NCBI GenBank assembly: GCA_018812485.1
Contig: JAHJDO010000115.1
Location: forward strand, 1-48,130
Length of the DNA stretch: 48,130 bases
Direction: 5' to 3'
Source: a bacterium
GTDB lineage: Bacteria > JAHJDO01
This document shows, one piece after another, positions 4,916-25,462 of this stretch. Within the stretch, counting starts at the first letter, position 1. Each line of letters starts with the position of its first letter. The notes under the pieces are model-generated. The model was not told where the DNA came from. It worked only from the letters and a program-made list of their open reading frames with translations, and made no database searches. The translations under genes and the position numbers were made by a program.

Positions 4916-4953
4916 ATTTATGTAAATGAGCTTTTGTGATTGGAGGAATGAAT

Positions 4954-5496
4954 ATGGGTTTGAAAGAGAAAGGTCCTGTTATGGACAAAGAAGGTGTAGA
5001 GAGGACAATCAGCCGTATAGCTCATGAAATAGTTGAGAAAAATAAGGGAACAGATAATCTGGTAATTATTGGCATAAGAACCAGAGGGGTCTTTCTTGCA
5101 GAGAGAATAGTAAAGAAAATAAAACAAATAGAAAAGGCTGTTCTTCCTATTGGCGTACTTGATATAACTCTTTATCGGGATGATTTAAGCACTATTGCTT
5201 CCCAGCCAGTGGTTCATAAGACAGAGATACCTTTTGATATAACGAATAAAGTGGTTGTTTTAGTGGATGATGTTCTTTATACGGGTAGAACTATACGAGC
5301 AGCATTAGATGAACTGATTGATTTTGGCAGACCAAAGGCAATCCAGCTAGCAGTTTTAGTAGATAGAGGACATAGAGAACTACCTATCCGAGCTGATTAT
5401 GCGGGGAAGAATGTTCCTACTTCTCAGAAAGAAATCGTTGAGGTTAGATTAGAAGAATACGATAAAAAGACAGAGGTTATAATTATTGGGAAATAG
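4954..5496 (+). CDS. pyrR: Bifunctional pyr attenuation regulator / uracil phosphoribosyltransferase PyrR
   Basis: RNA-binding regulator that senses UMP/UTP and binds the leader at 4831-4861; the family also has uracil phosphoribosyltransferase activity. The PRPP-binding loop is plain: [18 protein letters not shown] (about residues 90-107). From the ATG at 4954 it is 180 residues, the normal length. GGAGG at 4942-4946 is 7 bases before this ATG, whereas the earlier GTG (4936) and ATG (4948) precede it or touch it, so 4954 is the best start. First gene of the pyr operon and downstream of its own attenuator, giving autoregulation. Confidence 0.95.
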
Positions 5497-5516
5497 GCAA
5501 AGGGAAAGGAATAGAA

Positions 5517-6455
5517 ATGGAATGGAATAGAAAAGATCTTCTTGGACTGGAGGACTTAACAAAGGAAGAGATTAAGCTGATTTTAGACACAACAGAATCA
5601 TTCAAAGAAATATCAACGAGAGAGATAAAGAAAGTACCGGCATTAAGGGGAAAGACTATTGCAAACTTGTTCTTTGAACCTAGTACAAGAACAAGGATTT
5701 CTTTTGAGCTCGCAGAGAAGCGTCTAAGTGCAGATGTGGTAAACTTTTCTGCTTCAACAAGTAGTCTCTCAAAAGGAGAGACATTCATTGACACAGCAAA
5801 AAATATTGAAGCTATGAAAATAGATTGTGTTGTGATACGTCACAGCTCTTCTGGTGCATCCTATATGCTATCAAAAAAGCTAAATGCCAGTGTTATAAAT
5901 GCTGGAGATGGAACTCATGAGCATCCAACGCAGGCACTTCTAGACATGTTTACAATAAGAGAGAAAAAAGGCGGATTAGAGGGACTTAAGGTGGCGATTG
6001 TTGGAGATATCAGACACAGCCGCGTTGCAAGAAGCAACATCTGGGGCATGAGGAAAATGGGGATAGATGTGAGAATATGCGGACCGAAGACATTATTGCC
6101 TGTTGATATTGAAAAAACGGGCGCAAAGGTTTTCTATCATATAGAACATGCCATAAAGCATGTAGATGTTATTATGGCACTAAGGATTCAGAAAGAAAGA
6201 CAAGGACAAAGTTATTTCCCGTCAATAAGAGAATATTCAAAGTTCTATGGGCTCACAAGCGAGAGGCTTAAGTATGCAAAAGGGGATGTTTTAATAATGC
6301 ATCCAGGCCCTATAAACAGAGGTGTTGAAATTATGCCTGAAGTAGCTGATGGACCGTATTCAGTTATTCTCGAACAGGTAACTAATGGACTTGCAGTTCG
6401 TATGGCTGTTCTCTATCTTGTTATGGGCAGTAAAACTAAGGAGGTGAGCGCGTGA
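5517..6455 (+). CDS. pyrB: Aspartate carbamoyltransferase catalytic subunit
   Basis: Condenses carbamoyl phosphate and aspartate in pyrimidine synthesis. The 312-residue chain shows the carbamoyl-phosphate loop [13 protein letters not shown] (about residues 54-66), the [10 protein letters not shown] loop with catalytic Ser/Lys, [14 protein letters not shown], and the C-terminal [11 protein letters not shown]. No regulatory subunit gene (pyrI) is present nearby, consistent with the Firmicutes-type trimeric enzyme. GGGAAAGGAATAG precedes the ATG. The stop overlaps the start of pyrC by four bases, so the two are translationally coupled. Confidence 0.96.
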
Positions 6456-7747
6456 AACTACTCATTAAAAACGGAACTGTTGTTGATCCATCTCAACATA
6501 TAAATGAAAAGACGGACATATTGATAGAAAATAATAAAATATGCAAGTTAGGTAAGAATATCAGGGAGAACGATTGTGAGATATTCAATGCCGAAAACAT
6601 GATAGTTTCTCCCGGATTTATTGATATGCATGCTCATTTGAGAGAACCTGGTATGGAGGATGCCGAAACAATAGCTGCAGGAACCGCATCTGCCGCAAAG
6701 GGCGGGTTTACGTCAGTTTGCTGTATGCCAAATACAGAACCTGCGATAGATAATCAATCTGTTGTAAAGTTTGTTTTAGAAAAAGCTAAAAAAGAGGGTA
6801 AGGTCAATGTGTTCCCTATTGGCGCGATCACAAAGGCGCGAAAGGGAGCCGAACTTGCAGAGATTGGAGATATGAAAGATGCGGGAATAGTTGCTGTTTC
6901 AGATGATGGTAATTGGGTAGAAAATTCTGCTCTCATGAGAAGAGCACTTGAATATAGTGAGATATTTAATATTCTGGTAATATCGCATTGTGAAGATAAG
7001 ACACTCTCAGAGAAAGGAATGATAAACGAAAGTTATATTTCAACGGTCTTGGGACTGGAAGGCATTCCCAGGGAAGCAGAGGAAATCGCTGTTTTTAGAG
7101 ATATAAGCTTAGCAAAGATGCTGAATACCAGAATACATATTGCGCATGTGTCAAGCGGGGGAACAGTAGAATTGATAAAAGAGGCTAAAAACCGTAATAT
7201 AAAGGTCAGCTGTGAGGTAACACCTAACCATTTCACATTAACAGAACAAGCTATTAATGGTTATGATACAAATACAAAGGTTAATCCCCCATTGAGAAGT
7301 GAAGATGATATTCAAGCCATAAAAAACGGGCTTGCTGATGGAACAATAGATGTTATAGCAACAGACCATGCTCCTCACACAATAACAGAGAAGGAATATG
7401 AATATGATAATGCTCCGTTCGGGATTGTTGGTTTTGAGACAGCTATAGGGCTTGCCCTTACAGAACTTGTTCACAGCAAAGTTTTATCATTATCCCAGCT
7501 TATTGAAAAGCTCTCTTGTAATCCCGCAAAAATTCTTGGGTTTAAGACAAAGGGAACGTTGAAAATCGGCTCAGACGCAGACATAACAATAATAGATGAG
7601 AATAAGAAATGGACTGTAGATGTAAACAGGTTCCTCTCAAAGAGTAAAAACTCACCGTATCATAATAGAAAATTAAAGGGCAGGGTAATAGCTACTATTG
7701 TTGATGGAAAGATTGTATTTCATGACGCAATAATAGGGAGTAAATGA
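6452..7747 (+). CDS. pyrC: Dihydroorotase (type I)
   Basis: Cyclises carbamoyl aspartate to dihydroorotate. Amidohydrolase fold, 431 residues, matching the longer type I PyrC usually paired with a free PyrB. Metal and substrate motifs: [10 protein letters not shown] (about residues 58-67), the carboxylated-Lys/Asp region, HIAHVSSGG and ATDHAPHT near residue 308. It starts with GTG at 6452 in a GTGA overlap with pyrB, preceded by a strong AAGGAGG. It overlaps the next gene by four bases (ATGA), so transcription continues into the transporter. Confidence 0.95.
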
Positions 7748-9027
7748 TAGATTCTCATATTACTGAACAAAAAACTAAGCGCTATAAACGTGAAATATTC
7801 ATATTCAGAAGATGGAATTTTATCTTCAACATTGCTGAACATTCCTTTGATGTATTTGGTAGAACATTTGTTTCAGTAGTAACGGTATTACCAGTTTTCT
7901 TAAGCTTTCTCACAGACTCAAAAACTATTATAGGATTGCTTCCTGCTACCTGGGTTTTTTTCTGGATGTTTCCACAGATATTATCAGCATATTTTACAGA
8001 ACCAATTAAGCAGAAAAAGCGGATAATTGTTTTTCTTAAAATAATTTATGCTTTTCCATGGCTGATACTTGCTATTTATTTTCTTGTTTTTTTTAAAGCA
8101 TCTTCCAAAGTAGCTCTTGTTGTTTTCTTTATTGCGTTTGCCATTCATTCTCTTTTTGGAGGATTGGCTACACCAACGTGGCTTGCTTTTGTTGGAAAAC
8201 TGATTTCCAGAAACAAAAGAGGTGCCTTTTATGGTTTTTGGTACGTAATAGGGACAATGCTTGCTGTGTTAGGAGCTTTTGCAATAAAATATATCCTTGC
8301 AGCATATCCCTTTCCTGTTAATTTCGCCATATGTTTTTTACTGGCATTTTCATTTCTCTGCCTTGCAAATACTTTTCTTGCTATAACAGTGGAGCCTCAT
8401 CCTCCAAAAGTTGCTGATAGAATATCTCCTAAGGAATATTTTTCCAATGCTAAATCAATCCTGGAAAATACATCTTTTTTAAGATTTGTTCTTTGTATGA
8501 TGATGCTTGGTTTTGGGCCAGCAATGGTCAACGCGTTCTATATTATCTATGCAAGAGAAAACTTTAATATTCCTATTGGAGATGTTGGAACATTCACAGC
8601 AATTCTTCTTATATCACAGATTATAGCAGCTACTGTTGGTGGAAAGTTGACAGATAAATTAGGAGCACAACCTGTATTTTTAATTTCTTTGTTGTCTGCA
8701 GGACTTTGTAGTATATGGGCTTTAATTACTACCAGCGTCACAGGACTATATGTAATATTTAGTCTTATGGGGCTGTATTTGGGATTCTCGGTAGTTTCTT
8801 ATCATAATCTCATTCTTGAGATGGCACCCTCTAATAAAAGAGCAACATATATCGGATTGCTAAATACCCTGCGAGCTTCTTTTGTTGCGATTGGACCAAT
8901 CATGGGAGGAATGATAATAGACCATATTTCTTACAGGTTGTTATTCATTCTTGCTACTATTAGCACCTTAATTTCTATAGCATTGGTTATTGTGCCATTC
9001 AAGAAGAAGAATTTGGGAGTGACATGA
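7744..9027 (+). CDS. Major facilitator superfamily transporter
   Basis: A 427-residue inner-membrane protein with about 12 hydrophobic segments in two six-helix halves; a loop around residues 215-240 (PHPPKVADRISPKEYF) separates the halves. The loop after the fourth or fifth segment contains GKLISRNKRGAFYGFW, resembling the MFS intracellular R-rich motif. The substrate cannot be read. Its ATGA overlaps with both pyrC and the following exported-protein gene imply one transcript; the pyr context alone does not prove nucleobase transport. Start has GGGAG upstream. Confidence 0.82.
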   Translation: MIDSHITEQKTKRYKREIFIFRRWNFIFNIAEHSFDVFGRTFVSVVTVLPVFLSFLTDSKTIIGLLPATWVFFWMFPQILSAYFTEPIKQKKRIIVFLKIIYAFPWLILAIYFLVFFKASSKVALVVFFIAFAIHSLFGGLATPTWLAFVGKLISRNKRGAFYGFWYVIGTMLAVLGAFAIKYILAAYPFPVNFAICFLLAFSFLCLANTFLAITVEPHPPKVADRISPKEYFSNAKSILENTSFLRFVLCMMMLGFGPAMVNAFYIIYARENFNIPIGDVGTFTAILLISQIIAATVGGKLTDKLGAQPVFLISLLSAGLCSIWALITTSVTGLYVIFSLMGLYLGFSVVSYHNLILEMAPSNKRATYIGLLNTLRASFVAIGPIMGGMIIDHISYRLLFILATISTLISIALVIVPFKKKNLGVT

Positions 9028-9653
9028 GAACAAAAATTTTCATCTTATTGTTTCTACAAGTTACTGCGCTTGCTTATTGTGAGGTCAATTTGGTTCCAAA
9101 TGGTGATTTTGAGAATGGACGGCTTATGCCTGCTCATTGGGGATCTAATGCGAGAAAGGATTCTACAGTCCAAGTATATGAAAGTGCAAAAGGCAAAGTA
9201 ATAGAAGACAAAAATCTCCTGTGGAATAAGACTGAATCGCCTACGGGTAGATGCATAGAATTCAGACTTAATGAGCCAGCAAAGCAATGGACTTCAATCG
9301 CTGCGACAAGTGGAATGGAATATGAAAGCGAATATATTCCTGCCATGTATAACCAGGAATACAAACTCAGTATAGATATTAAAAGTGTAGGTATTAATGG
9401 AAAGGAAAACGGTCCCAAGGTTATTGTGTTTGTTAAAGCGTACAGTTATGATAAGAAAAAGATGAAATCCTTTGAGGTGTATCGTGCTCCTATGCATTGT
9501 TACCCTGAAAACCCCGGGGATTGGAGTACATGCTCAAGAACATTTAAAATTAAAGTATCAACTGCTCAGAAAATGAAGGTAGTTGTGTATGCATACTGGC
9601 CAAAAGGTGTTGTGTACTTTGATAATGTAAGATTGATAGAGATTAACGAATGA
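9024..9653 (+). CDS. Exported protein with CBM4/9-like jelly-roll domain
   Basis: 209 residues. A short Sec signal (MRTKIFILLFLQVTALAYC, cleavage near residue 18-20) precedes one beta-rich domain that opens with VNLVPNGDFENGRLMPAHW, the hallmark start of CBM_4_9-type galactose-binding-like modules, and closes with VVYFDNVRLIEI. No catalytic domain follows, so it is a stand-alone carbohydrate-binding or surface protein. It starts within the stop of the MFS gene (ATGA), last gene of the run before the restriction cassette. The Cys at residue 19 could also make it a lipoprotein, though a good lipobox is not evident. Confidence 0.7.
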   Translation: MRTKIFILLFLQVTALAYCEVNLVPNGDFENGRLMPAHWGSNARKDSTVQVYESAKGKVIEDKNLLWNKTESPTGRCIEFRLNEPAKQWTSIAATSGMEYESEYIPAMYNQEYKLSIDIKSVGINGKENGPKVIVFVKAYSYDKKKMKSFEVYRAPMHCYPENPGDWSTCSRTFKIKVSTAQKMKVVVYAYWPKGVVYFDNVRLIEINE

Positions 9654-9675
9654 AACATTCATGCCCCCTTTTCCC

Positions 9676-9704
9676 TTTATGGATTTGGGATGGTGGGGTA
9701 TAAT
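9676..9704 (+). promoter_or_regulatory. Candidate promoter of the mod-AIPR-res cassette
   Basis: A perfect TATAAT at 9699-9704 lies 37 bases before mod. The -35 position has only TTATGG 17 bases upstream, so the promoter is a weak prediction; it sits in the only intergenic gap available to the cassette. Confidence 0.3.
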
Positions 9705-9740
9705 CACAAATAAATGAAAAAATTGGAGTAAAATAAAAAT

Positions 9741-11729
9741 ATGGAAAACTTATTACACAATTTAAAAACCCTGCTTCAAAAAGATGAGCGATTGACCAGC
9801 GAAGGCGATCTTTTGAAGAATAAAATTATTGAGCTTGCCTTGAAGTTGGATAAGGGGCTTCTAAAACTTCTTTTGTCTGATAAAAAAATGAAGATGGTAT
9901 TTTTCGCTGATGTAGATAAGGTTTTAATTTTTGATAAAGATAAATTTCTCCGTTTTGTTTCCAACAAGCAATTTTTGCCGGACTCTTATACAGCTTTTTC
10001 CCAAAATGTTGGATTGATGCACGAAGACGGTAGGATGTTTAGACAAATTGATCCCAAAAAAGAAGTCGTTCTTGTCTGGCCTTATAAAGATTGTGTTTTG
10101 GAAGGCGGGATGACCAAAGAAGATCAAAAGCATAATGAGATTTTCTGGAACAAAACGCTGGCGCCGGATGAAATCAGCCGCCTGCTTGACCCAAAAGTTT
10201 TTACCAATGCGAAACGAATTGACAAAAATGGTGAACATCCTATGGTGTCATTGCGAGGGAGCGATAGCGACCGTGGCAATCTCGGTTTTCGCCTTGATGA
10301 AAACGGCGACATTAAAGATAATCTTATTATCAAAGGCAATAACCTTTTAGCCCTCCACTCCCTCAAAAAACGCTTTGCCGGAAAAGTAAAACTAATTTAC
10401 ATTGACCCGCCATACAACACTAACAACGACAGTTTTGGTTATAACGATAGTTTTAATCATTCTACATGGCTTACATTTATGAAAAATAGGCTAGAGGTGG
10501 CAAAGGATATGCTAAAAGAGGACGGCTCTATTTTTATTCAGATTAACGATATTGAACAAGGTCATTTGAAAGTTCTATGCGATGAGGTTTTTGGCAGAGA
10601 GAATTTTCACACTACAATTTGCGTGCAAATGTCTCATTTGAGCGGTGTAAAGATGGCACACAAGGATAAAAAACTTCCAAAAATCAAGGAGTTTATCTTG
10701 TGGTATACAAAATCAGGAAATATAAAACTCAATCCACAATTTATTCCTGCTTCTTGGGACAAGGCATTGGAAAGATATAATTCTTTTTTATATAAAAATG
10801 GTTACCCAGATGATGAGTGCCAAAAGTGGAAAGCGATTTCATTATCACAAGCCATTAAGGATATTGGCATTGATAAGAATGACAGAAGAGCCATTTTAGA
10901 ATTTAAATTACAAAACGCCGACTTAATTTTTAGAACCGCTCGCAATAGAGGTGCTGATTATTCTAGTTTACCTTACGACAAGTTTACAAAAATTAAGAAT
11001 CAGGATGGATCTTATTATTTTGCTTACAAACATGAGGATGTTAATTTCGCTGCAGAAAAGGTGATTAAAATTGCTGGCAAATTGACACCTGTCGTTTCAC
11101 TAGGTGATATTTGGACTGACATAGGAATCAATAATCTATCAAATGAAGGTGGAGTAGAACTTCGGTTTGGCAAAAAGCCAGAAAAGTTGTTGGAGAGAAT
11201 AATTAACTTAACTACGCAAGAAAATGAAATTGTAATGGATTTTTTTGCAGGAACGGGTACCACTGGTGCTGTTGCTCATAAACTTAACCTCCAATATATC
11301 TTAGTTGAACAATTAGATGATCATTGTAAAAAAACAATAAAGCGACTTAATAATGTTATTAAAGGAGAACAAATCGGTATTTCGAAAGAAGCTAACTGGA
11401 AAGGCGGCGGGGATTTTGTATATTTAGAACTTATGAAATGGAACGAGAATTTTGCTGAGAAAATAGAAAGAGCAAAAACAAAAGAAGAACTAAAGAAATT
11501 GTGGGAAACAATGAAAGAGAAAGCGTTTTTGAGTTACAAGGTAGATATAAAGGCAGTTGACGAAAACGCCAAAGATTTTGCCAGCTTATCTATTGAAAAC
11601 CAAAAAAGATTTTTGCTTGAGTGTTTGGACAAAAACCATCTCTATGTAAACTACAGCGAGATTGATGATGAGGAGTATGGAGTAAGTGAGGCGGATAAAA
11701 TAATAAATAAGGAATTTCATGGAGGTTAA
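9741..11729 (+). CDS. mod: Type III restriction-modification DNA methyltransferase (Mod)
   Basis: Beta-class amino-methyltransferase (probably N6-adenine) that recognises the target and modifies one strand. Motif IV is IDPPYN at about residues 221-226, and the SAM-binding motif I FFAGTGTTGAV at about 500-510; the variable stretch between them (about 290-460) should be the target recognition domain. It is 662 residues, usual for the family, and its N-terminal and IKGNNLLALHSL blocks are typical Mod sequence. Oddity: residues about 169-182 are encoded by a palindromic repeat element also found in the intergenic DNA at 16151-16193 (see repeat). GGAGTAAAATAAAAAT precedes the ATG. It is followed by an AIPR gene and res in one operon. 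Confidence 0.92.
   Translation: MENLLHNLKTLLQKDERLTSEGDLLKNKIIELALKLDKGLLKLLLSDKKMKMVFFADVDKVLIFDKDKFLRFVSNKQFLPDSYTAFSQNVGLMHEDGRMFRQIDPKKEVVLVWPYKDCVLEGGMTKEDQKHNEIFWNKTLAPDEISRLLDPKVFTNAKRIDKNGEHPMVSLRGSDSDRGNLGFRLDENGDIKDNLIIKGNNLLALHSLKKRFAGKVKLIYIDPPYNTNNDSFGYNDSFNHSTWLTFMKNRLEVAKDMLKEDGSIFIQINDIEQGHLKVLCDEVFGRENFHTTICVQMSHLSGVKMAHKDKKLPKIKEFILWYTKSGNIKLNPQFIPASWDKALERYNSFLYKNGYPDDECQKWKAISLSQAIKDIGIDKNDRRAILEFKLQNADLIFRTARNRGADYSSLPYDKFTKIKNQDGSYYFAYKHEDVNFAAEKVIKIAGKLTPVVSLGDIWTDIGINNLSNEGGVELRFGKKPEKLLERIINLTTQENEIVMDFFAGTGTTGAVAHKLNLQYILVEQLDDHCKKTIKRLNNVIKGEQIGISKEANWKGGGDFVYLELMKWNENFAEKIERAKTKEELKKLWETMKEKAFLSYKVDIKAVDENAKDFASLSIENQKRFLLECLDKNHLYVNYSEIDDEEYGVSEADKIINKEFHGG
10246..10284 (+). 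repeat. Palindromic REP-like element, in frame inside mod
   Basis: TGTCATTGCGA at 10246-10256 and GCAATCTCG at 10276-10284 are the same termini as the intergenic element at 16151-16193 (which is in reverse orientation). The variable centre here is 19 bases. It is read in frame as VSLRGSDSDRGNLG, between EHPM and DENGDIKDNL, where related Mod proteins normally have only a short link. ATTGC/GCAAT repeats give it hairpin ends. Confidence 0.7.
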
Positions 11730-11732
11730 ATT

Positions 11733-13433
11733 ATGGCTACATATCAAGATTTCTCTTTAATAAAAAAAGAAGTTGAATTTGTACAAAAGAGGAACAAGAT
11801 AGAGCAAGTGCCTACGGCTTTTATATTTATGGTATTGGAGAAACTCTATCCAGAGATAGATCCGCTCGACTACATTACCGATGGCAGTATGGATTTCAGT
11901 ATAGATGCTTATTATATAGACGAAGCGAAGAAAACAATCAATCTTTTTCAATTTAAACATACCGGAAGTTTTGAAACAGCAAAAAAGAAAAATGGAATAA
12001 AAGAGAAAGAACTAAATGATCTAATTGTAAAGTTAGAAGCAATCTGGAATAGAGATAAAGATTTGCTAAAAAGAGCAAATATTAAGCTAGAAGAGGCTAT
12101 ACAAGAAATTTGGGAAGCTTTTGAAAAAGGTTTTATAAAAACGAACATTTATCTTATAACCAATTATCAAACCACTCTTGATAACGATCATATGACTAAG
12201 GCAAGACAGCAAATAAAAGATAGATTTCGAGCCGAGCTTAAAGTTCTATCTTTAGACGAATTAGTAAAATTAATTATAGAAAAAGAATTTCATCCGGTAG
12301 ATATTAAATTGCAGTTAAAAGGAAAAAACTATTTTGAAGAGTCCACGGGAGATGTTAGGGCTTTAATTGCTGAAGTAAATGCTCTAAATTTTCTAAAGTC
12401 AGTATTAGACAAGAAAGAAGAGATAAAAGAAGAGGTGTTTAATGAAAACGTAAGAGTTTATCTGCAATCTAATACAAAAATTAATAAACAGATATACAAT
12501 TCGATAGAAGCTAAAGAAAATTATAAGTTTTTTTACTACAACAATGGGATTACAGCTGTTTGTGACAGTTTTGAGCACAACAGATCAGATAGTCCTCTTG
12601 TAACTTTGAAAAATTTTCAAATAGTTAATGGCGGACAAACGATGCATTCTATCTATGAAGCATATAAAAATGGATTAAAAGACAAAATTGACAATATATA
12701 TTTATTGCTAAGGATTTATGAAGTTAAAAATAGGGAAGTTGGACAGGAAATAGCAAGATTTACAAATACACAAAATCCTGTGAAAAATAGAGATATTATG
12801 TCGAATGATTTAATTCAAATTAAACTTCAAAAAGAGTTACATAATGAAGGGTTTTACTATGAAAGAAAAAAATACGAGTATAGAGAACAGAAGATTGATA
12901 ATAATAATAAAATTGACGCTGAAAAATTAGGACAAGCGATTTTGACATTTTATTTAGAGAAACCAGGTTCTGCTAAAAATAAAAAACAAGAAATATTTGG
13001 AGATTTTTATAACGATATATTTGCGGAAGATAAAATTAATACTGATTATGTATTATTGCCGAATTTTTTGTATAAAAAAATAGAAATAGACATTAAAAAA
13101 TTTACTAAAAAAGTTAGAAAGTTAGAGAAGGACAACAAGATAGAAGATTTAGAAAAAAGCTTGCATGAAGATGGATTTTTAAGTCATGCTCATTATTATT
13201 TATTATTTGTACTTAAACTATTGGCAGAGAATGAAAATATATTGTTAAATCGGGGAAATGCAAATAAGATTTTTGAATTTTACAACAAAGCAAAAACAAT
13301 TTTGCGAGATATAGTCAAGAAAAAGAAAAAAGATCCTAAATTTTCTATGCCACATCTTTTCAAATCGGACGATTTAGTGAATGAAATAAAAAATTCTAGT
13401 AAAATAGACGACCCTAATAAAACTAAAAAATGA
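11733..13433 (+). CDS. AIPR-family protein (abortive-infection phage resistance type)
   Basis: 566-residue charged cytoplasmic protein. Residues about 262-360 carry the AIPR signature: FFYYNNGITAVCDSF, then LKNFQIVNGGQTMHSI, then ARFTNTQNPVKNRDIMSND. The N-terminal part has DFSIDAYYID (Asp58) and NLFQFKH (Gln73, Lys75), the spacing expected of a PD-(D/E)xK-like nuclease core, as in other AIPR proteins. The C-terminal third is Lys-rich and helical. GGAGG inside the end of mod serves it, and res begins in its stop codon (ATGA), so it is translated as part of the mod-res operon. This suggests a phage-defence effector coupled to the type III system. The family assignment is firm; nuclease activity and role are inference. 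Confidence 0.85.
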   Translation: MATYQDFSLIKKEVEFVQKRNKIEQVPTAFIFMVLEKLYPEIDPLDYITDGSMDFSIDAYYIDEAKKTINLFQFKHTGSFETAKKKNGIKEKELNDLIVKLEAIWNRDKDLLKRANIKLEEAIQEIWEAFEKGFIKTNIYLITNYQTTLDNDHMTKARQQIKDRFRAELKVLSLDELVKLIIEKEFHPVDIKLQLKGKNYFEESTGDVRALIAEVNALNFLKSVLDKKEEIKEEVFNENVRVYLQSNTKINKQIYNSIEAKENYKFFYYNNGITAVCDSFEHNRSDSPLVTLKNFQIVNGGQTMHSIYEAYKNGLKDKIDNIYLLLRIYEVKNREVGQEIARFTNTQNPVKNRDIMSNDLIQIKLQKELHNEGFYYERKKYEYREQKIDNNNKIDAEKLGQAILTFYLEKPGSAKNKKQEIFGDFYNDIFAEDKINTDYVLLPNFLYKKIEIDIKKFTKKVRKLEKDNKIEDLEKSLHEDGFLSHAHYYLLFVLKLLAENENILLNRGNANKIFEFYNKAKTILRDIVKKKKKDPKFSMPHLFKSDDLVNEIKNSSKIDDPNKTKK

Positions 13434-16054
13434 CTATGCTCTACGAAACTTTTAATTCAATAAGAGAATCATTTGGGCAGGATTATTTTATTTCGCGGGT
13501 TAGCGATGAGATAGTCCAGAATCTCAATCCAAAGTTTGAATTACGCGAATACCAAAAAGAAACGCTGGGCCGATTTGATTTTTATTTCAACGGCTATCAA
13601 AAAAGACAATTCCCGGCGCAATTGCTTTTCCATATGGCAACTGGAAGCGGCAAGACGCTGATAATGGCTGCCAATATTTTGTATTTATACACGCTCGGGT
13701 ACCGCAATTTTATCTTTTTTGTAAACAGCACGAACATTATTGAAAAAACACGGGATAATTTTTTAAATCCTTTATCAGAAAAATATCTTTTTGCGCCAAA
13801 AATTAAGTTTGGAGAAAAGCAAGTTGATGTTAGAGAGGTTCAAAATTTTGAAGCGGTAAATTCGGGAAATATCAATATTGTTTTTACCACTATTCAGGGA
13901 TTGCACACGCGTTTAAATTATCCTCGCGAGAACGCTTTAACATATGAAGATTTTGAAGACAAAGAAATTGTCCTTATCTCAGATGAAGCGCATCACTTGC
14001 AAACCCTGACAAAATCCAAATTATCAGGAAGTGAATTGGAAGAAAAAAGAAGCTGGGAATATACAGTTGAGCAGATTTTCAGGAGCAATCTTAAAAATAT
14101 TCTGTTGGAGTTTACGGCAACGATTGACTTGGGCAATCAAAATGTCAGGCAAAAATACGAAGACAAAATCGTCTTCCAATATGATTTGAAACAATTTCGC
14201 TTGGATAAGTATTCAAAAGAAATAGAGGTTTTACAGGCGGATTTAGATCCGATTGACCGAGCTTTACAGGTAGTTATTTTAAGCCAGTATCGCAGAAAAA
14301 TTGCCGAGAAAAACAAAATAAGGCTAAAGCCAGTGATTCTTTTTAAGTCTAAAAGCATAAAAGAATCAAAAGAAAATTATGAGGGGTTTTTATTAAAAAT
14401 AAAAAAATTATCCTCCAAAGATATTCAAGAAATACATTCACGGGCAAAAGGCACAATTTTAGAAGATGTGTTTAACTATTTCCAAAAAGAGAATATAACT
14501 TTTGACAATTTAATCAGAGAAATGCAAGAGGATTTTTCTGAAGAAAAGTGTATGCTTTTGGATTCCGAAAATGTTGATGAAGAAAAGCAATTAAAACTTA
14601 ATTCTTTAGAGAATAAGAATAATGAGCTGAGGGCTATTTTTGCGGTTAATATGCTAAATGAAGGTTGGGATGTGCTTAACTTGTTTGATATTGTCCGGTT
14701 ATACGATACGCGGGATGGGAAATGGGTTCACGGTAAGTATAAGCCCGGCAATACGACAATGGGTGAAGCGCAGCTCATTGGCAGAGGAGCAAGATATTTC
14801 CCATTTCAATTAGACGAGATACAAGATAGGTATAAAAGAAAATTTGATGAAGATGCCGAAAATGAAATGCGTGTTATAGAGGCATTACATTATCATAGCA
14901 AACACAATCCTGATTATATTTCTGAACTGAAATCGGCTCTTACTGAAATCGGAATTTTACCGGAAAAGTATATTCAGAGAGATTTGTTTATTAAAGATTC
15001 TTTTAAGGAGACTGAATTTTGGAAAGAAGGTGTGATTTTTATAAATGACAGGATACAAAATCCAAGAGGGGAGATATTTAGTTTGCAAGACGCAAAAATT
15101 GAAGAGAAATATAGATACGAATTGAGAACTGGAGAAATTAAAGAAGAAATTATTTTAGATGAAGCAAAGAAACCAAAGTCATCAGGCGTTACGCGTGACA
15201 AAATAGCATATAAATTTGTTGATTTTGGAGAAAATATAGTGCGAAACGCTTTAGATAGATTTGAGTTCTATAAATTCCAAACACTAAGGAAATATTTCCC
15301 TTATGTGAAATCAGTTAAAGCATTTATTTCGTCGCTTAATTATTTAGGCAGCGTTAGCATAGAGGTTTTAGGCCCAAAGGACAAAATAAATAAATTAACT
15401 TCAACTCAAAAATTAGAAATGGTTTTATTTGTAGTTAAAAAGATATCGGAACAAGCGAGAACTAACACTTCAGAATTCATAGGGACAAAATTATTTAAGG
15501 CACAGTTACTTAGAGATATTTTCGGCAAAAATGAAGGCAGAAAGACCTTGAAATTGGATAGCGACAGCGAAAGGGCGCAGGAGATGGTAGAAATAAATTT
15601 GGATGATAAAGATTGGTATGCGCAAAACGATTTATATGGAACAAGCGAAGAAAGAGATTTCATCAAATTTATTGATGAAGCTATAGAGAAATTAAGACAA
15701 AAATATTCAGATATTGCTTTACTTCGCAATGAAAAGTTTTTTCAAGTTTTTGATTTTGATGAAGGCAGAGCGTTTGAGCCGGATTTTATAATGATTTTGA
15801 AAAAAAGGAATAGAGCCATTGGTATTTATCAGATTTTTATTGAGCCAAAAGGAGATCAATTTAAAGACAGTCAAGGCAAGTTTGAAAATTCTAAAGAGGG
15901 ATGGAAACAAAAATTTTTACTTGGGATGGAAGAAAAAGCAGACACTGATTTAAAATTGGAAAATAAACACTTTAAGCTGATGGGGCTGCCTTTTTACAAC
16001 GAAAAATTGAAAAAAGATTTTGAGGAAGCGTTAGAAAATAAAATACTTTTTTAA
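13430..16054 (+). CDS. res: Type III restriction enzyme, helicase-nuclease subunit (Res)
   Basis: ATP-dependent superfamily 2 translocase and endonuclease that acts with Mod at unmodified sites. Walker A is ATGSGKT at residues 70-76, the DEAH-type box is ISDEAHH at about 182-188, and LIGRGARYF near residue 450 is motif VI. The C-terminal nuclease motif PD-(D/E)xK appears as EPDFIMI (about 782-788) and IFIEPKG (about 801-807). 874 residues, typical. It overlaps the AIPR gene by four bases. After it come dispersed repeats, then pyrK, so the cassette ends here. Confidence 0.92.
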   Translation: MTMLYETFNSIRESFGQDYFISRVSDEIVQNLNPKFELREYQKETLGRFDFYFNGYQKRQFPAQLLFHMATGSGKTLIMAANILYLYTLGYRNFIFFVNSTNIIEKTRDNFLNPLSEKYLFAPKIKFGEKQVDVREVQNFEAVNSGNINIVFTTIQGLHTRLNYPRENALTYEDFEDKEIVLISDEAHHLQTLTKSKLSGSELEEKRSWEYTVEQIFRSNLKNILLEFTATIDLGNQNVRQKYEDKIVFQYDLKQFRLDKYSKEIEVLQADLDPIDRALQVVILSQYRRKIAEKNKIRLKPVILFKSKSIKESKENYEGFLLKIKKLSSKDIQEIHSRAKGTILEDVFNYFQKENITFDNLIREMQEDFSEEKCMLLDSENVDEEKQLKLNSLENKNNELRAIFAVNMLNEGWDVLNLFDIVRLYDTRDGKWVHGKYKPGNTTMGEAQLIGRGARYFPFQLDEIQDRYKRKFDEDAENEMRVIEALHYHSKHNPDYISELKSALTEIGILPEKYIQRDLFIKDSFKETEFWKEGVIFINDRIQNPRGEIFSLQDAKIEEKYRYELRTGEIKEEIILDEAKKPKSSGVTRDKIAYKFVDFGENIVRNALDRFEFYKFQTLRKYFPYVKSVKAFISSLNYLGSVSIEVLGPKDKINKLTSTQKLEMVLFVVKKISEQARTNTSEFIGTKLFKAQLLRDIFGKNEGRKTLKLDSDSERAQEMVEINLDDKDWYAQNDLYGTSEERDFIKFIDEAIEKLRQKYSDIALLRNEKFFQVFDFDEGRAFEPDFIMILKKRNRAIGIYQIFIEPKGDQFKDSQGKFENSKEGWKQKFLLGMEEKADTDLKLENKHFKLMGLPFYNEKLKKDFEEALENKILF

Positions 16055-16116
16055 ATTATGAAAGACGGGGGTATCCCAAATAGTTAAATTGAAGAATGAT
16101 GTCAAATCTTTAAACA

Positions 16117-16193
16117 TCTGGATTCCCCGATTAAATCAGAGAATGACAAGCGAGATTGCTTCATCCCGAAAGCGTTCGGGATTCGCAATGACA
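16117..16193. repeat. Two adjoining palindromic intergenic repeats
   Basis: The 155-bp gap between res and pyrK holds an imperfect palindrome at about 16117-16147 (ATTCCCCGATT / AATCAGAGAAT) and a second element at 16151-16193. The latter, on the minus strand, begins TGTCATTGCGA, has a perfect TCCCGAA/TTCGGGA hairpin in the centre and ends GCAATCTCG. Its ends match the element inside mod (10246-10284). Such CATTGCGA...GCAATCTC units are dispersed in many bacterial genomes. Confidence 0.75.
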
Positions 16194-16209
16194 GAAAGGA
16201 TATTTTTAG

Positions 16210-17052
16210 ATGAAAATTTTTAATGTCAAAAAAGAAATAATAGAAAACAAAAAAGTCTCTTCCAATTGTTATAGAATGACATTCGAGTCAAAAGAAATAG
16301 CTTGCAGAGTAAAACCAGGACAATTCCTGCATATAAAATGCTCGGATACATATGATCCCTTATTAAGAAGACCCATCAGTGTTCATAGTATAGAAAACAA
16401 TGTTATTGGAATTCTTTATAAAGTAATTGGAAGGGGAACAGGATTATTATCTAAGAAGACCTCAGGAGATACTATAGATGTTATAGGTCCATTAGGCAAT
16501 GGTTTTGATTACCAATTAGTTTCCAATTGCCAGTTGCCAATTCTTGTTGGTGGAGGTATAGGAATTGCCCCCTTATATTTTCTTGCTCAGAGACTTGTTG
16601 AGAGAGGCTCAAATATAACTGTTCTTATTGGCGCGGATACTAAATACAACATTCTCTGCGTAGATGAGCTTAAAAAATTGGATTGCAAAGTGAAAGTATC
16701 TACAGATGATGGAAGCGCAGGAATAAGCGGAACAGTTGTTGATTTATTAAAAAATGAACTTATTCCAGCAAATTCAAAATTCAAAATTCAAAATGCAAAA
16801 TTTAAAATTTTTACTTGTGGGCCTGTCCCTATGCTGAAACAGGTTAATCAATTAGCTTCCAAGTATAATGTTTCCTCTCAGGTCTCATTAGAAAGGCAAA
16901 TGGCGTGTGGTGTTGGAGCATGTATGGGATGCAGTATAAAAATCCGAAATCCGAAATCCGAAATCCGAAAAAATAAGATGTTTGATTATAAACAGGTTTG
17001 TAAAGACGGTCCTGTTTTTGATATTAAAGAAATTGCTTGGGAGGAGATGTGA
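16210..17052 (+). CDS. pyrK: Dihydroorotate dehydrogenase electron transfer subunit
   Basis: FAD and [2Fe-2S] subunit that passes electrons from PyrD (class 1B) to NAD+. FAD contact RRPISVHSI at about residues 53-61, the nucleotide-binding GGGIGIAPLYFL at about 115-126, CGPVPML, and the cluster ligands in ACGVGACMGC plus the Cys of YKQVCKDGPVF. At 280 residues it is slightly longer than usual because two AT-rich repeat tracts are translated in frame: SKFKIQNAKFKI before TCGPVPML and IRNPKSEIRKNK between the third and fourth cluster Cys. It heads the second half of the pyr genes, separated from pyrC by about 8.5 kb including the restriction cassette. Confidence 0.93.
   Translation: MKIFNVKKEIIENKKVSSNCYRMTFESKEIACRVKPGQFLHIKCSDTYDPLLRRPISVHSIENNVIGILYKVIGRGTGLLSKKTSGDTIDVIGPLGNGFDYQLVSNCQLPILVGGGIGIAPLYFLAQRLVERGSNITVLIGADTKYNILCVDELKKLDCKVKVSTDDGSAGISGTVVDLLKNELIPANSKFKIQNAKFKIFTCGPVPMLKQVNQLASKYNVSSQVSLERQMACGVGACMGCSIKIRNPKSEIRKNKMFDYKQVCKDGPVFDIKEIAWEEM
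16770..16811 (+). repeat. AT-rich AATTCAAA repeat tract inside pyrK
   Basis: About 42 bases made of near-tandem AATTCAAA/AATGCAAA/TTTAAA units, translated as NSKFKIQNAKFKIF just before the conserved CGPVPML. The same kind of sequence occurs in the intergenic repeat at 31964-32092. Confidence 0.65.
16944..16971 (+). repeat. Four tandem 7-bp CCGAAAT units inside pyrK
   Basis: CCGAAAT x3 and CCGAAAA run at 16944-16971, coding for part of IRNPKSEIRKNK between cluster-ligand cysteines. The unit matches the ATCCGAAAT motif of the intergenic repeat at 31964-32092. 28 bases plus one flanking codon keep the frame open. Confidence 0.7.
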
Positions 17053-17960
17053 GTAAATTAAGTCTTGGTGTGGATATTGCTGGAATAAAGATGAAAAGTC
17101 CCGTAATGACAGCTTCCGGCACATTCGGATATGGCTTGGAGTATTCACAACTAATAGATGTAAAAAAATTTGGAGCAATTGTTACAAAGACTATAACACT
17201 GGAACCAAGGATTGGTAATCCCCAACCTAGAATTGTGGAGGTAACTGGTGGTATGCTGAATTCAATAGGACTCGAGAATCCAGGAGCTAAAGTTTTTATT
17301 GAAGAAAAACTACCAAAGCTAAAAGGGTATGGCGTGCCAATTATAGCAAATATTTCAGGCAGCAGAGAGGCAGAGTTTGTCAAACTTGCTGATCTATTGA
17401 AAGATATTGGATTATCAGGTCTAGAGTTAAATATTTCCTGCCCAAATGTGGGATATGCAGGACTATTTGCCCAAGATGCAGATACAACTTATAAACTTGT
17501 TAGAAAGGTAAGAAAGGTTACAAGTCTGCCACTGATTGTTAAACTTACTCCTAATGTTACAGATATTACACTAATTGCCAGAGCAGCAGAAGACGGGGGC
17601 GCAAATGCAATATCCTTAATCAATACTCTAATAGGCATGAGTATAGATATTCAGACAAAAAGGCCTAAGCTGGCAAATGTCGTTGGAGGGCTGTCAGGCC
17701 CTGCAGTTAAGCCAGTAGCATTAAGAATGGTCTATGAAGTGTCTAAAAAAGTACGTATCCCAGTAATTGGGATGGGAGGAATAATGACTTCGGACGATGC
17801 TATTGAATTTTTACTTGCCGGGGCAAGTGCAGTTGCTATTGGCACAGCAAACTTTGTTAACCCTAATACTTGCTGTGAGATTATAGAGGGCATTAAAAGA
17901 TATATGAAAAACAACAAGTTTAGTAATATATTAGATATCGTCGGGCGAATTAATGAGTAG
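17049..17960 (+). CDS. pyrD: Dihydroorotate dehydrogenase, class 1B catalytic subunit
   Basis: FMN-dependent oxidation of dihydroorotate to orotate, in complex with PyrK. 303-304 residues. Motifs: ASGTFGYG near residue 20, NISCPNVG with the catalytic Cys (about 128-135), KLTPNVTD, and the FMN phosphate site MGGIMTSDDA (about 241-250) and AIGTANF. The GTG at 17049 with GGGAGGAG just upstream is preferred over the TTG at 17037, which would put the ribosome site inside the gene. GTGA overlap with pyrK couples translation. The stop lies within the beginning of ispE. Confidence 0.95.
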   Translation: MSKLSLGVDIAGIKMKSPVMTASGTFGYGLEYSQLIDVKKFGAIVTKTITLEPRIGNPQPRIVEVTGGMLNSIGLENPGAKVFIEEKLPKLKGYGVPIIANISGSREAEFVKLADLLKDIGLSGLELNISCPNVGYAGLFAQDADTTYKLVRKVRKVTSLPLIVKLTPNVTDITLIARAAEDGGANAISLINTLIGMSIDIQTKRPKLANVVGGLSGPAVKPVALRMVYEVSKKVRIPVIGMGGIMTSDDAIEFLLAGASAVAIGTANFVNPNTCCEIIEGIKRYMKNNKFSNILDIVGRINE

Positions 17961-21054: not shown

Positions 21055-22971
21055 ATGCGTAAACTTTCGGATCAGGAGATTGGAAAAATTGTAAGCCTTC
21101 TCAAGGAAGGCAAGCCCTTGCACGATGACTACAAGGTCAGCCTCTTTGATACCAAGAAGGAATATGAACTGCTCTATGCTGATAAGGAAAGAGAGGTTGA
21201 TATTCTATCTGACACCATGTCTGTGCCATTGCAGAAGGTCAAGACCTTCCGAAACGGCAGGAACGGCAATGACTGGATGAACATGCTTATCTTTGGCGAT
21301 AACCTTCAGGTGCTGAAGACCCTCTTACAAATGAAACTGGAAGGCAAGCTCACAAACGCCGATGGAACGTCAGGAGTGAGGCTCGTTTATATTGATCCAC
21401 CGTTTGCCACAAGGCAGGAGTTTCGGGGAAGCCAAGATCAGAAGGCGTATCAGGACAAGATTGCTGGGGCAAAGTTCTTGGAGTTTTTAAGGAAGCGGCT
21501 GGTCTTCCTGCGAGAATTGTTGAGTGAGGATGGGAGCATTTATGTGCATTTGGATTGGAAGAAGGGGCATTATGGAAAAATTCTCTTAGATGAAATATTT
21601 GGAGAACAAAATTTTAGAAATGAAATAGCGTGGTGTTATACAGGGCCATCTGCTCCAGGACAAAAACAATTTTCTCGGAAACATGAGATTATATTATTCT
21701 ACGCAAAATCAAATGATTATGTTTTTAATGTTGATGAAATTCGAGTTCCATATCATGACACAACAGCCGGAAAATTTGAAAGTGAAGGAACGGGTTTTGG
21801 CGGAACTGAGGCCGATTTATCAAAAGGTAAAATACCAGAAGATTGGTGGTACTTACCAATTGTGGCAAGAATAAGAACAGAGATTTTAGGGTATCCCACC
21901 CAAAAGCCCGAAGCATTACTTGACCGCATCATCAAAGCCTCCTCCAACCCGGGCGACCTTGTGCTGGACTGCTTTGCCGGCTCAGGCACGACCCTTGCCG
22001 TAGTGGAGAAGTTAGGCAGAAGGTGGATTGGTGTGGACTGCGGCAAGCTTGCCATCTATACCATGCAGAAGCGCCTCTTGAACATCGCCGAGAGCAAAAA
22101 CTTGGAGAAGCCTAAGAATAAATATGAAAAGCCGTGCAAGCCTTTCGCTCTCTACAATGCAGGTCTTTACGATTACAAGATGGTCAAGGAACTCCCCTGG
22201 AAGCAATATCGGGAATTTGCCTTAAAGCTCTTTCAGTGCAGGAATAAGAAGTATGAGATTTCCAAGATTGAACTTGACGGCTACCTGGGGGCGGATAGCG
22301 TCATGGTCTTCAATTACCAGAAACACAAAGACGCCGTAATGGACAGGGGATTTATTGATGACCTCCATAAATATCTGGGGCACAAAATTGGCAGACGCTT
22401 CTTTATCATCGCCCCCGCCGCCTCGGTGCAATTTCTTGAGGACTACATAGAAAAAGGCAAGACGAAATACTTTATCCTCCGCATCCCTTATTCCATCATT
22501 GAAGAGATTCACAATCGAGGTTTTACCAAGATCAAACAGCCTGTCAGCGAGATGAATGTCAACGACACAGTGGATGCCGTGGGGTTTGATTTTATTCAAG
22601 TGCCGATGGTGGAATGCAAATATTATCTGGATAAATCAAAGAATCCTGATCTCCTGAATCAGAAGACAAAAGAATGTGTCATTAAGATTGAGAAGTTTGA
22701 GAGCAAGGTTATCTCCCGTAAGCCGCTGGAGTTTGCCAATCTTGAGACCCTTTCTATGGTCATGCTGGACTACGATTTTGATGGGGAGGTCTTTGACCTG
22801 GACGAGGTCTTCTATGCCGAGAACTTGAAGAAGAACGACTACGAGGTGCGGTTTGCCGAGAATAAGGTAAAGGGGCAAATCATGGTTATTTACATTGACA
22901 TCTTCGGCAATGAAAAGCGGGAAATAAAGACACTGTCCGACTTTAACGGAAAGAGGAAAAACCATGCTTGA
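21055..22971 (+). CDS. Type III-like DNA methyltransferase of the mobile element
   Basis: Second Mod-type protein, 638 residues. Motif IV is IDPPFA (about 113-118; DPPF rather than DPPY) and motif I is CFAGSGTTLAV (about 306-316), the beta-class order. The recognition region between them (about 180-285) is encoded by DNA clearly more AT-rich than the flanks, suggesting exchange of this domain. After residue 330 a long C-terminal domain follows that is unlike the first Mod in this window. AGAAGGTAACGACT precedes the ATG. It overlaps the helicase gene by eight bases, so both are one operon. N6-adenine or N4-cytosine specificity cannot be settled from sequence. Confidence 0.9.
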   Translation: MRKLSDQEIGKIVSLLKEGKPLHDDYKVSLFDTKKEYELLYADKEREVDILSDTMSVPLQKVKTFRNGRNGNDWMNMLIFGDNLQVLKTLLQMKLEGKLTNADGTSGVRLVYIDPPFATRQEFRGSQDQKAYQDKIAGAKFLEFLRKRLVFLRELLSEDGSIYVHLDWKKGHYGKILLDEIFGEQNFRNEIAWCYTGPSAPGQKQFSRKHEIILFYAKSNDYVFNVDEIRVPYHDTTAGKFESEGTGFGGTEADLSKGKIPEDWWYLPIVARIRTEILGYPTQKPEALLDRIIKASSNPGDLVLDCFAGSGTTLAVVEKLGRRWIGVDCGKLAIYTMQKRLLNIAESKNLEKPKNKYEKPCKPFALYNAGLYDYKMVKELPWKQYREFALKLFQCRNKKYEISKIELDGYLGADSVMVFNYQKHKDAVMDRGFIDDLHKYLGHKIGRRFFIIAPAASVQFLEDYIEKGKTKYFILRIPYSIIEEIHNRGFTKIKQPVSEMNVNDTVDAVGFDFIQVPMVECKYYLDKSKNPDLLNQKTKECVIKIEKFESKVISRKPLEFANLETLSMVMLDYDFDGEVFDLDEVFYAENLKKNDYEVRFAENKVKGQIMVIYIDIFGNEKREIKTLSDFNGKRKNHA

Positions 22972-25462
22972 GCGGCAGACCTTTCGGAACAAGGATTTAG
23001 TCCTTAAAGTATCTTCCAACTACGATCCCAAGAGGTTTGATCCGAATAAATACGAGGCTTTTCTGGACGCCCTCTGCGAGGACAGGGAATACCAGAAAGA
23101 GGCAATCAGGGAAGCGATGCGCTACTTTTTGGGCGGTGAATACAAAAGCCTCAAGGAACTGGCGGAGGAAAACTATCATAAGAACCCCAAACTTCAGGAG
23201 AAGTATTCATCTTCTGCAGATTTCTTAAGCTATCTGCAACTGCCGGATAAACTCTCCTGCTCTCTGGATCACGCAACGGCTACCGGCAAAAGCTATGTGA
23301 TGTATGGCATTGCCCGCATTATGCTGGCCGAGGGCGCTGTGGATCAGGCGTTGGTCCTGTGTCCTTCTAACACCATCGAGGCTGGGCTCACAGAGAAGTT
23401 TCTGAGCCTCTCCGCTGATAGAACCCTCAAAGACCTTCTGCCTGCCGATTCTAAGATTGCCAACCCACGTATTATCAATGCCTCCAACACCATTCAGAAG
23501 GGGGACGTCTGCATTGAGAACATCCACGCCACCTATATCAACACCAAATCTGCCATTGAGGATAGCCTTGTCGGGAAAGGCGAGCGGACTCTGGTATTGA
23601 ACGATGAAGCACACCACTTGATGAGCCCCTCCGATACGGCACTCAAAAAATGGAAGGAATTTTTACTTGATCCTAAATATGGATTCAAATTTATCGTGAA
23701 TGTTTCAGGCACTTGCTATATAGAAGATGACTATTTCACTGATGTCATCCACCGCTTTTCCTTGAGGGATTCCATTGAGGAGAAGTTTATCAAATCTATC
23801 CGTTATGTGGCAGAGGACTCCTCAGGGAGCGAGGATGAAAAGTTCCAGAAGATTTACGACAATCACATTGAGAACAAGACGGTAAAATACCGTAAGGTTA
23901 AACCCATTACTATCCTGGTTACCAAAAACATCGCCGCCTGCAAGCGTCTCACCGATAAACTAGTTGCCTTCCTTGCCACCAAAGAAAGGATCAGTAAAGA
24001 GCAAGCGGTAGCGAAGATTTTAATCGTTACCTCTGCCAACGAGCATAAGAAAAATATCCCCATCCTGCGAAGGGTGGATGACAAGGACAACCCCATTGAG
24101 TGGATTACTTCTGTTAGCATGCTCTCCGAAGGCTGGGATGTCAAAAACGTCTTTCAGATCGTCCCGCATGAGGAGAAAGCGTTTAATTCAAAACTTCTGA
24201 TTGCCCAGGTACTGGGAAGGGGCTTGAGGATACCTGAGGTCTACAGGGGCAATCAACCAGTTGTAACTGTTTTCAATCACGATAAGTGGTCAGGGAGTAT
24301 CAAACACCTGGTAGATGAAGTTTTGGAGATTGAGAAGCGCATCCACTCCTACCCGGTGGAGAAGAAAGAGGACTACAACTTTAATCTATATCAAATTGAT
24401 TATGAGAAGGTAATAGAAGAGACTAAGGAATATCCAAAAGAGGATGAGTTTGAATTACTCAAGAAAGGATATATTGCTTATTGGAGCCAGGAGGAGGATG
24501 TAGAAAAGAGCACTACCTACGTCAGGGCGGTCTCTGGCGAGCAGGATGTAAAGAAAACGCTGATTGAGTTCAAGATGTATTCTGTCGACGAGGTGGCACA
24601 TGATGTGTCCAATCGCCTTCGTATTTTTGACCAAGAGGCAGGGACCGACTATAGCGGAGAATGGCCTAAAGAAAGAATTGCTAACATTATCCGACAGTCT
24701 TTGCGACAAGTGAACGATAAAACAGGCATGGTTGGCGAGGAAAATCGCCAGAAAACAATACAGGCATTTGGTGTTATCAAAAGGAAAAGCAGCACTTTCC
24801 CAAGGATAGTGCTGAAATCAAAAGAACCCTACAAAATCAGCACCCGAAAGATAAATAAAAACAGTGTCGGTGTAGGGGCTCTACGGCGTGACAACACGGT
24901 GTTTTGGGATGACTACTCTTTAACTACTGGAGACGAACAAGATAGAAAACTCCTAAAAGAGTTGGTTGAGATAAAAGAGGACGGAGAGCTTATAGATATT
25001 GTTAAGGTTGAAAACCGATATAATTTCAAAACTCCGCTCAATATGACATTATCTAGCTACAAACCAGAGAGAAAATTCATACAAGGTTTGATTAAGAGTG
25101 ATAATGTCAAGGCGATAGATACATGGATCAAATCTCTGGATGTGGGTTTCTACAGTATTGAATACTCATGGCGAAAAGGGGAGCATCCTAAGCCGGGGAG
25201 TTTTAATCCTGATTTCTTTATCAAGGCGGGTAGCGATATTATTGTGGTGGAAATCAAGATGGACGATGATATCTCCGATGAAAATAAGGCTAAACTCCGA
25301 TATACCAGGGAGCATTTTGCCAGGGTCACCGAGCTGCAGAAAGAGCAGAGGTATTATTTCAAATTCCTTTCCCCAGGAAGTTATGACCTATTTTTTAAGT
25401 CCTTGAGGGAGAAAACGCACAGGGATTTCAAATCAGAGCTTGAGGCAAAGTTAGAGGAATAA
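22964..25462 (+). CDS. Type III-like restriction helicase-nuclease of the mobile element
   Basis: 832-residue superfamily 2 helicase paired with the upstream methyltransferase. Walker A is ATATGKS (residues 104-110), the DEAH box is LNDEAHHL (213-220), and VLGRGLRIPEV near residue 420 is motif VI. The C-terminal nuclease core reads NPDFFIK (about 747-753) and IVVEIKMDD (about 759-767), a PD-(D/E)xK signature. Its sequence differs from the other Res in this window, so the two systems are not recent duplicates. The first half is GC-rich compared with the chromosome, supporting transfer. Restriction activity is inferred from domain content. Confidence 0.9.
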   Translation: MLERQTFRNKDLVLKVSSNYDPKRFDPNKYEAFLDALCEDREYQKEAIREAMRYFLGGEYKSLKELAEENYHKNPKLQEKYSSSADFLSYLQLPDKLSCSLDHATATGKSYVMYGIARIMLAEGAVDQALVLCPSNTIEAGLTEKFLSLSADRTLKDLLPADSKIANPRIINASNTIQKGDVCIENIHATYINTKSAIEDSLVGKGERTLVLNDEAHHLMSPSDTALKKWKEFLLDPKYGFKFIVNVSGTCYIEDDYFTDVIHRFSLRDSIEEKFIKSIRYVAEDSSGSEDEKFQKIYDNHIENKTVKYRKVKPITILVTKNIAACKRLTDKLVAFLATKERISKEQAVAKILIVTSANEHKKNIPILRRVDDKDNPIEWITSVSMLSEGWDVKNVFQIVPHEEKAFNSKLLIAQVLGRGLRIPEVYRGNQPVVTVFNHDKWSGSIKHLVDEVLEIEKRIHSYPVEKKEDYNFNLYQIDYEKVIEETKEYPKEDEFELLKKGYIAYWSQEEDVEKSTTYVRAVSGEQDVKKTLIEFKMYSVDEVAHDVSNRLRIFDQEAGTDYSGEWPKERIANIIRQSLRQVNDKTGMVGEENRQKTIQAFGVIKRKSSTFPRIVLKSKEPYKISTRKINKNSVGVGALRRDNTVFWDDYSLTTGDEQDRKLLKELVEIKEDGELIDIVKVENRYNFKTPLNMTLSSYKPERKFIQGLIKSDNVKAIDTWIKSLDVGFYSIEYSWRKGEHPKPGSFNPDFFIKAGSDIIVVEIKMDDDISDENKAKLRYTREHFARVTELQKEQRYYFKFLSPGSYDLFFKSLREKTHRDFKSELEAKLEE

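Follow-up and report, generated by a model that had tools for sequence, protein, structure and literature searches.

What is a gene of the AIPR/AbiU family doing between the mod and res genes of a type III restriction-modification (RM) system? The question is raised by an operon within the window (the whole 48,130-nucleotide stretch of DNA analysed here), in which mod, an AIPR gene and res follow one another on a single strand. That AIPR proteins keep company with RM systems is already known—the family is common in RM operons and has been linked to type III RM (PMC2292703, PMC3506569)—and such combinations are not new. A search of the open-access literature on genes between mod and res found no explicit description of a mod-AIPR-res arrangement; a published type III variant with a third gene carries a helicase/ATPase 5' of mod (PMC8259958), whereas the extra gene here lies between mod and res.

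The operon and its surroundings

The features to which the text refers are these:

9741..11729, forward strand: mod, type III DNA methyltransferase, 662 aa (PF12564, 71 bits; PF01555, 152 bits)
11733..13433, forward strand: AIPR/AbiU-family gene, 566 aa (PF10592, 167.7 bits against a cut-off of 25; PADLOC AbiU)
11892..11957, forward strand: putative PD-(D/E)xK-type site, AIPR codons 54-75 (D54..D58..Q73xK75)
12438..13322, forward strand: Pfam AIPR domain, residues 236-530 (invariant N239/R241, F266/NNG270-272, NGxQ299-302, NxQ345-347)
13430..16054, forward strand: res, type III restriction helicase-nuclease, 874 aa (PF04851, 103.5 bits)
21055..22971, forward strand: mod of a second type III system, without AIPR (64% identical to the mod of locus L192)
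22964..25462, forward strand: res of the second system, overlapping its own mod by 8 bp with no insert (64-75% identical to the res of L192)

Beginning at the 5' end of the operon, the product of mod (608 bits against PADLOC MTase_III) retains intact motifs in the order of a beta-class enzyme, with DPPY at residue 222 and DFFAGTG at residue 500. The motifs of Res are likewise intact: GSGKT at residue 72 and DEAH at 185 in the SF2 motor, and EPDF...EPK at 783-807 in the C-terminal PD...ExK nuclease. The mod-then-res order, beta-class Mod, SF2 motor and C-terminal nuclease are all shared with type III enzymes of the EcoP1I/EcoP15I type, from which the operon differs by the gene that separates mod from res, the two being usually adjacent. 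Mod and Res would together form an ordinary type III enzyme, cutting incoming unmethylated DNA.

Just 3 bp separate the AIPR gene from mod, and shortly 5' of its start codon stands a GGAGG Shine-Dalgarno-like run. At its other end, the annotated ATG of Res (13430) overlaps the AIPR stop; since the Res homologues in L154, L217 and L218 begin at MLY.., Res may instead start at the ATG at 13436, 2 bp past that stop. The contiguity of the three genes described in the original prediction is thus borne out by their intact reading frames, common strand and 3-bp gap, whilst the ATGA overlap described with it hinges on the choice of start codon. The genes are closely packed with either Res start, and translational coupling could take place; no convincing promoter or terminator was predicted inside mod-AIPR-res, prediction numbers being equal to those for shuffled sequence. 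We infer a single mRNA, from which AIPR would be co-produced with Mod and Res.

The operon sits within a pyrimidine biosynthesis cluster (4936-17960 of the window), which it splits; to its 5' side lie pyrR-pyrB-pyrC-MFS and to its 3' side pyrK- and pyrD-like genes (names as read from the sequences). The AIPR gene has a G+C content of 27.9%, compared with 35.6% for mod (z=-5.0) and 33.4% for res (z=-3.8)—a compositional difference in line with an origin separate from that of its two neighbours. Low G+C is frequent among defence genes, and is no proof that AIPR was inserted late. The gene is present in one copy in this genome and was not found in four congeneric genomes (G001-G004).

Two further type III pairs are found in the same genome. 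The pair at 21055-25462 has no insert and a third, on contig C140 (L158), is also bare, so that of the three type III systems in this genome one carries cargo and two are bare. The second pair belongs to another family and has a G+C content of 44%, against 38% for the window; an NYN-domain gene (26249-26893) and a tyrosine-recombinase-like gene (30025-31143) lie 3' of it, suggesting that together they make up a mobile island.

The AIPR protein and its predicted fold

The assignment to the AIPR family is secure: the signature YNNGIT, QIVNGGQT and FTNTQNPV, on which the original prediction was founded, is present and falls in invariant columns of the family, and the PF10592 profile matches far above its cut-off. 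The PADLOC AbiU model (PDLC02357) is matched over the whole length of the protein (residues 34-554, E=8.3e-56), and all 73 aligned members, the window's own included, have N239, R241, NNG, NGxQ and NxQ without variation. Both the whole-length match and the full set of invariant motifs are thereby shared with the AIPR/AbiU1 family (PF10592). AIPR is the sole Pfam family matched in the protein; the PrrC family is not matched.

Membership of the MZA system was considered and rejected. MZA consists of mzaABCDE, MzaE being an AIPR protein, and related systems combine Z1, a cytosine methyltransferase and AIPR (PMC9523054; Prevotella Pin25611FIII, PMC5608340). Our operon shares with these an AIPR gene set among modification and nuclease genes but is without Z1, MutL or a cytosine methyltransferase; the NCBIfam MzaE model scores 60.7 bits, far short of its cut-off of 1050, and the MutL and Z1 partners are absent from the operon.

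A PDB sequence search returned no relative of the protein among solved structures. Our model, built with the 73-sequence alignment, has a mean pLDDT of 93.8, compared with 35 for a single-sequence model that was discarded. In it, a restriction-endonuclease-like N-terminus of mixed alpha/beta structure is joined to the central AIPR domain. The putative catalytic residues at the N-terminus are conserved among the 73 relatives (D58 in 73/73, D54 and K75 each in 71/73, Q73 in 65/73), with D58, Q73 and K75 lending support to the PD-(D/E)xK-like part mentioned in the original prediction. The AIPR of L192, which belongs to another subfamily, matches PF04471 (Mrr_cat) over the same N-terminal region at 21.3 bits against a cut-off of 21; Mrr_cat finds no match in the window's own protein. 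A fold search of the PDB gave no match at E<=0.001, the most plausible candidate being the nicking endonuclease Nt.BspD6I (probability 0.8, TM below 0.2).

A 2012 paper assigns an N-terminal HEPN domain to AIPR (PMC3506569). The present protein lends this no support: HEPN models are missing from the 25 most frequent Pfam families among the 73 members and give no match in the window's AIPR at E<=1, and the N-terminus is predicted to be of mixed alpha/beta structure, not all-helical. On the model, the N-terminus is better read as a nuclease than as a HEPN domain.

For the central domain, Foldseek searches of viral models matched phage AIPR proteins, and returned weak matches to proteins with the GmrSD N-terminal domain (probabilities 0.99, 0.89 and 0.72, with low TM) and to one ParB/sulfiredoxin protein. 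A likeness of this domain to the GmrSD/DUF262 fold is a lead only. GmrSD and BrxU are modification-dependent enzymes, the latter complementing BREX; by extension, a nuclease domain coupled to a GmrSD/DUF262-like domain, both as modelled here, might make AIPR a type IV-like enzyme that cuts phage DNA protected from Res by its modified bases. We consider this quite improbable: the DUF262 likeness consists of weak fold matches, neither the DUF262 nor the DndB Pfam model is among the families listed for the 73 members, and the AIPR motif is NGxQ as against the DGQQR/DGQHR of GmrSD/DUF262 and DndB. What the model does suggest is a two-part effector, in which a PD-(D/E)xK-like domain would provide the nuclease and the AIPR domain, weakly like the NTP-binding GmrSD/DUF262 (ParB/sulfiredoxin) fold, might serve as a sensor or NTP-dependent switch.

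Cargo of the mod-res junction and contexts of AIPR genes

How unusual is it for a gene to lie between mod and res? We compared 36 distinct mod-to-res loci (window included), a non-random set selected by likeness to the window's Mod and Res; setting aside one fragmentary locus and one split by an ISL3 transposase leaves 34 that can be classified. The junction is bare in 25 and holds a non-transposon gene in nine, among them the window. The premise that type III systems normally consist of mod and res only is therefore right for most of these loci and wrong for the nine.

The genes found in the junction differ from one locus to the next. AIPR occupies it in the window and in L192; the others hold a helix-turn-helix/IrrE peptidase gene with DUF4411 (IrrE-PIN; L156), HEPN-like and MNT genes (L157), DUF1828 (L172), a PD-(D/E)xK protein of the GxxExxY type (L174) and, at two loci whose Res is 50-53% identical to ours, proteins of no known family (L219:6508-7107, 199 aa; L224:4504-4941, 145 aa). 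The closest intact operon of all (L154; Mod 56-66% and Res 65% identical) carries an unrelated 519-aa protein at this position. The closest Res (78% identical, G042) lies at a contig end, with no AIPR just upstream. This pattern suggests that the junction, though an uncommon slot, has repeatedly taken up differing add-on defence genes; we would picture it as a recurrent site of exchangeable cargo.

Some further observations belong to these loci. The 519-aa protein of L154 (9145-10704) is of no known family, and its C-terminal RSAAVAH resembles the Rx4-6H motif of HEPN RNases. Directly 3' of the 78%-identical Res lie an MNT nucleotidyltransferase gene and a HEPN gene (L217:2980-3679), in a genome with further copies of this Mod or Res that are incomplete or decayed (L152, L218).

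Viewed from the side of AIPR, the picture is one of independence. Used as a query, the single AIPR sequence found no relatives in scans of whole genomes and viral contigs; these were recovered with the alignment as query. Searches in the phyla of G038, G042, G586, G709 and G674 covered 2-25 genomes each, with little yield. The nearest relatives (30-39% identical) are solitary genes in bacterial chromosomes, prophages and plasmids, one of them, in Salmonella phage RE-2010, being annotated ‘prevents superinfection’; the closest (39% identical, L012) has unrelated genes as neighbours. Of the 136 nearest AIPR loci, 80 come from genomes of bacteria and archaea and 56 from viral contigs; none has a type III gene, mod or res, at a distance of 4 kb or less, the flanks being incomplete in some. 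The window's gene, placed within a mod-res pair, is thus unlike most of its nearest relatives, which stand alone. The suggestion that AIPR modifies the activity of Res finds no support here, the nearest relatives occurring without an adjacent Mod or Res.

More distant members of the family do keep RM company. A domain-wide sample places AIPR in 35 of 385 genomes, and its context was surveyed at the 33 fetched loci in which the gene was recovered again. L192, from another phylum than the window, is the sole mod-AIPR-res arrangement among them. At L200 (2203-12739) AIPR lies in a type I operon of the order hsdM-hsdS-116aa-89aa-AIPR-rhuM-hsdR, with AIPR and RhuM thus placed between hsdS and hsdR. 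Elsewhere AIPR adjoins a C5 methyltransferase and Vsr (L196), Vsr (L190), Z1 (L182), N6/N4 methyltransferases (L199, L211), or a PLD-helicase with or without an Eco57I methylase (L183, L185). In three genomes (L199, L211, L172) the N6/N4 methyltransferase beside AIPR has a shared KEASxWASxYL-like N-terminus; these pairs are perhaps a separate two-gene system. A survey of one large phylum (345 genomes) yielded 42 AIPR genes and 33 type III mod N-termini, co-located just once, with AIPR 3' of res (G227); none of the 42 is embedded in a type III operon. Because of these contexts we regard AIPR as an RM-associated yet mostly independent gene, the exact triplet being rare.

Accordingly, mod-AIPR-res as a conserved unit, the order of which the original prediction had proposed to look for across genomes, is rejected: the nearest AIPR genes are solitary and the nearest operons hold other cargo or none. 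Equally, the pairing is not peculiar to this genome, as it would have had to be for the original prediction to fall, given the independent mod-AIPR-res of L192 and the M-S-AIPR-R order of L200. Could it nonetheless be a matter of chance, an AIPR gene having landed in a type III operon with operon-friendly spacing and no functional link? Mobile defence genes do cluster in islands (PMC3506569), and the triplet is rare enough (one of 33 other AIPR loci, none of the 136 nearest, none of the 42 in the large phylum) that such clustering could account for it. The tight spacing, which preserves the start of res, speaks against this, as do the second, independent case in L192 and the reuse of the junction by other non-transposon genes; we give chance little credence.

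A proposed AIPR effector beside the restriction enzyme

On balance we lean, with moderate confidence, towards an autonomous AIPR effector captured in the mod-res junction and expressed together with the RM enzyme, where it would form a second line of defence against phages that get past restriction. As far as its anatomy goes, the composite defence operon envisaged by the original prediction, with a putative PD-(D/E)xK-type AIPR, is upheld.

The main rival to such autonomous cargo is a guardian: AIPR would be held inactive by, or would sense, Mod-Res, and would be released when a phage inhibits or removes restriction. The precedent is PrrC, encoded within a type IC locus and switched on by inhibition of EcoprrI (PMC12707154). 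Both PrrC and AIPR are effector genes embedded in an RM operon, and the AIPR of L200, between hsdS and hsdR, extends the likeness to a type I system; PrrC, though, is an anticodon nuclease of an unrelated family, and it is by gene position that AIPR is likened to it. The placement of AIPR between modification and restriction genes in the window, L192 and L200 fits a guardian, as does the repeated presence of toxin-like genes (HEPN/MNT, IrrE-PIN) in the slot. Against this, most AIPR relatives have no RM neighbours and so cannot depend on one; the swapping of cargo between close operons (L154 and the window) also makes a contact tailored to Res less likely. By analogy with PrrC, then, this remains an unlikely but serious reading. 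Broader still, the junction between modification and restriction genes (mod-res or hsdS-hsdR) might be a general site at which guardian effectors, AIPR among them, dock and are exchanged, each being released when restriction is inhibited or bypassed; we think this rather unlikely. In that case AIPR would, as far as we know, be the first guardian of this kind for type III restriction.

For the captured, autonomous effector that we favour, L192 and the window offer a natural comparison. Given the identity of the L192 mod and res to the window's bare pair at 21055-25462 (listed above), the same type III family exists both with and without AIPR. Over the AIPR core, the AIPR proteins of L192 and the window share about 29% identity; with two subfamilies represented, two different AIPR genes have therefore entered two type III families. 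The AIPR and res of L192 each carry one frameshift in the assembly, so this copy may be decaying or mis-assembled.

What the locus adds to the known association of AIPR with RM is an intact mod-AIPR-res case, a related pair of systems with and without AIPR, evidence that the junction's cargo is exchangeable and a confident model of the AIPR protein. The last is of value in a widespread family, AIPR/AbiU, of which the window's member has no sequence relative among solved structures. L192 and the pair at 21055-25462, in turn, make up a natural pair with which to test whether second-layer effectors are interchangeable and whether they depend on the restriction enzyme.
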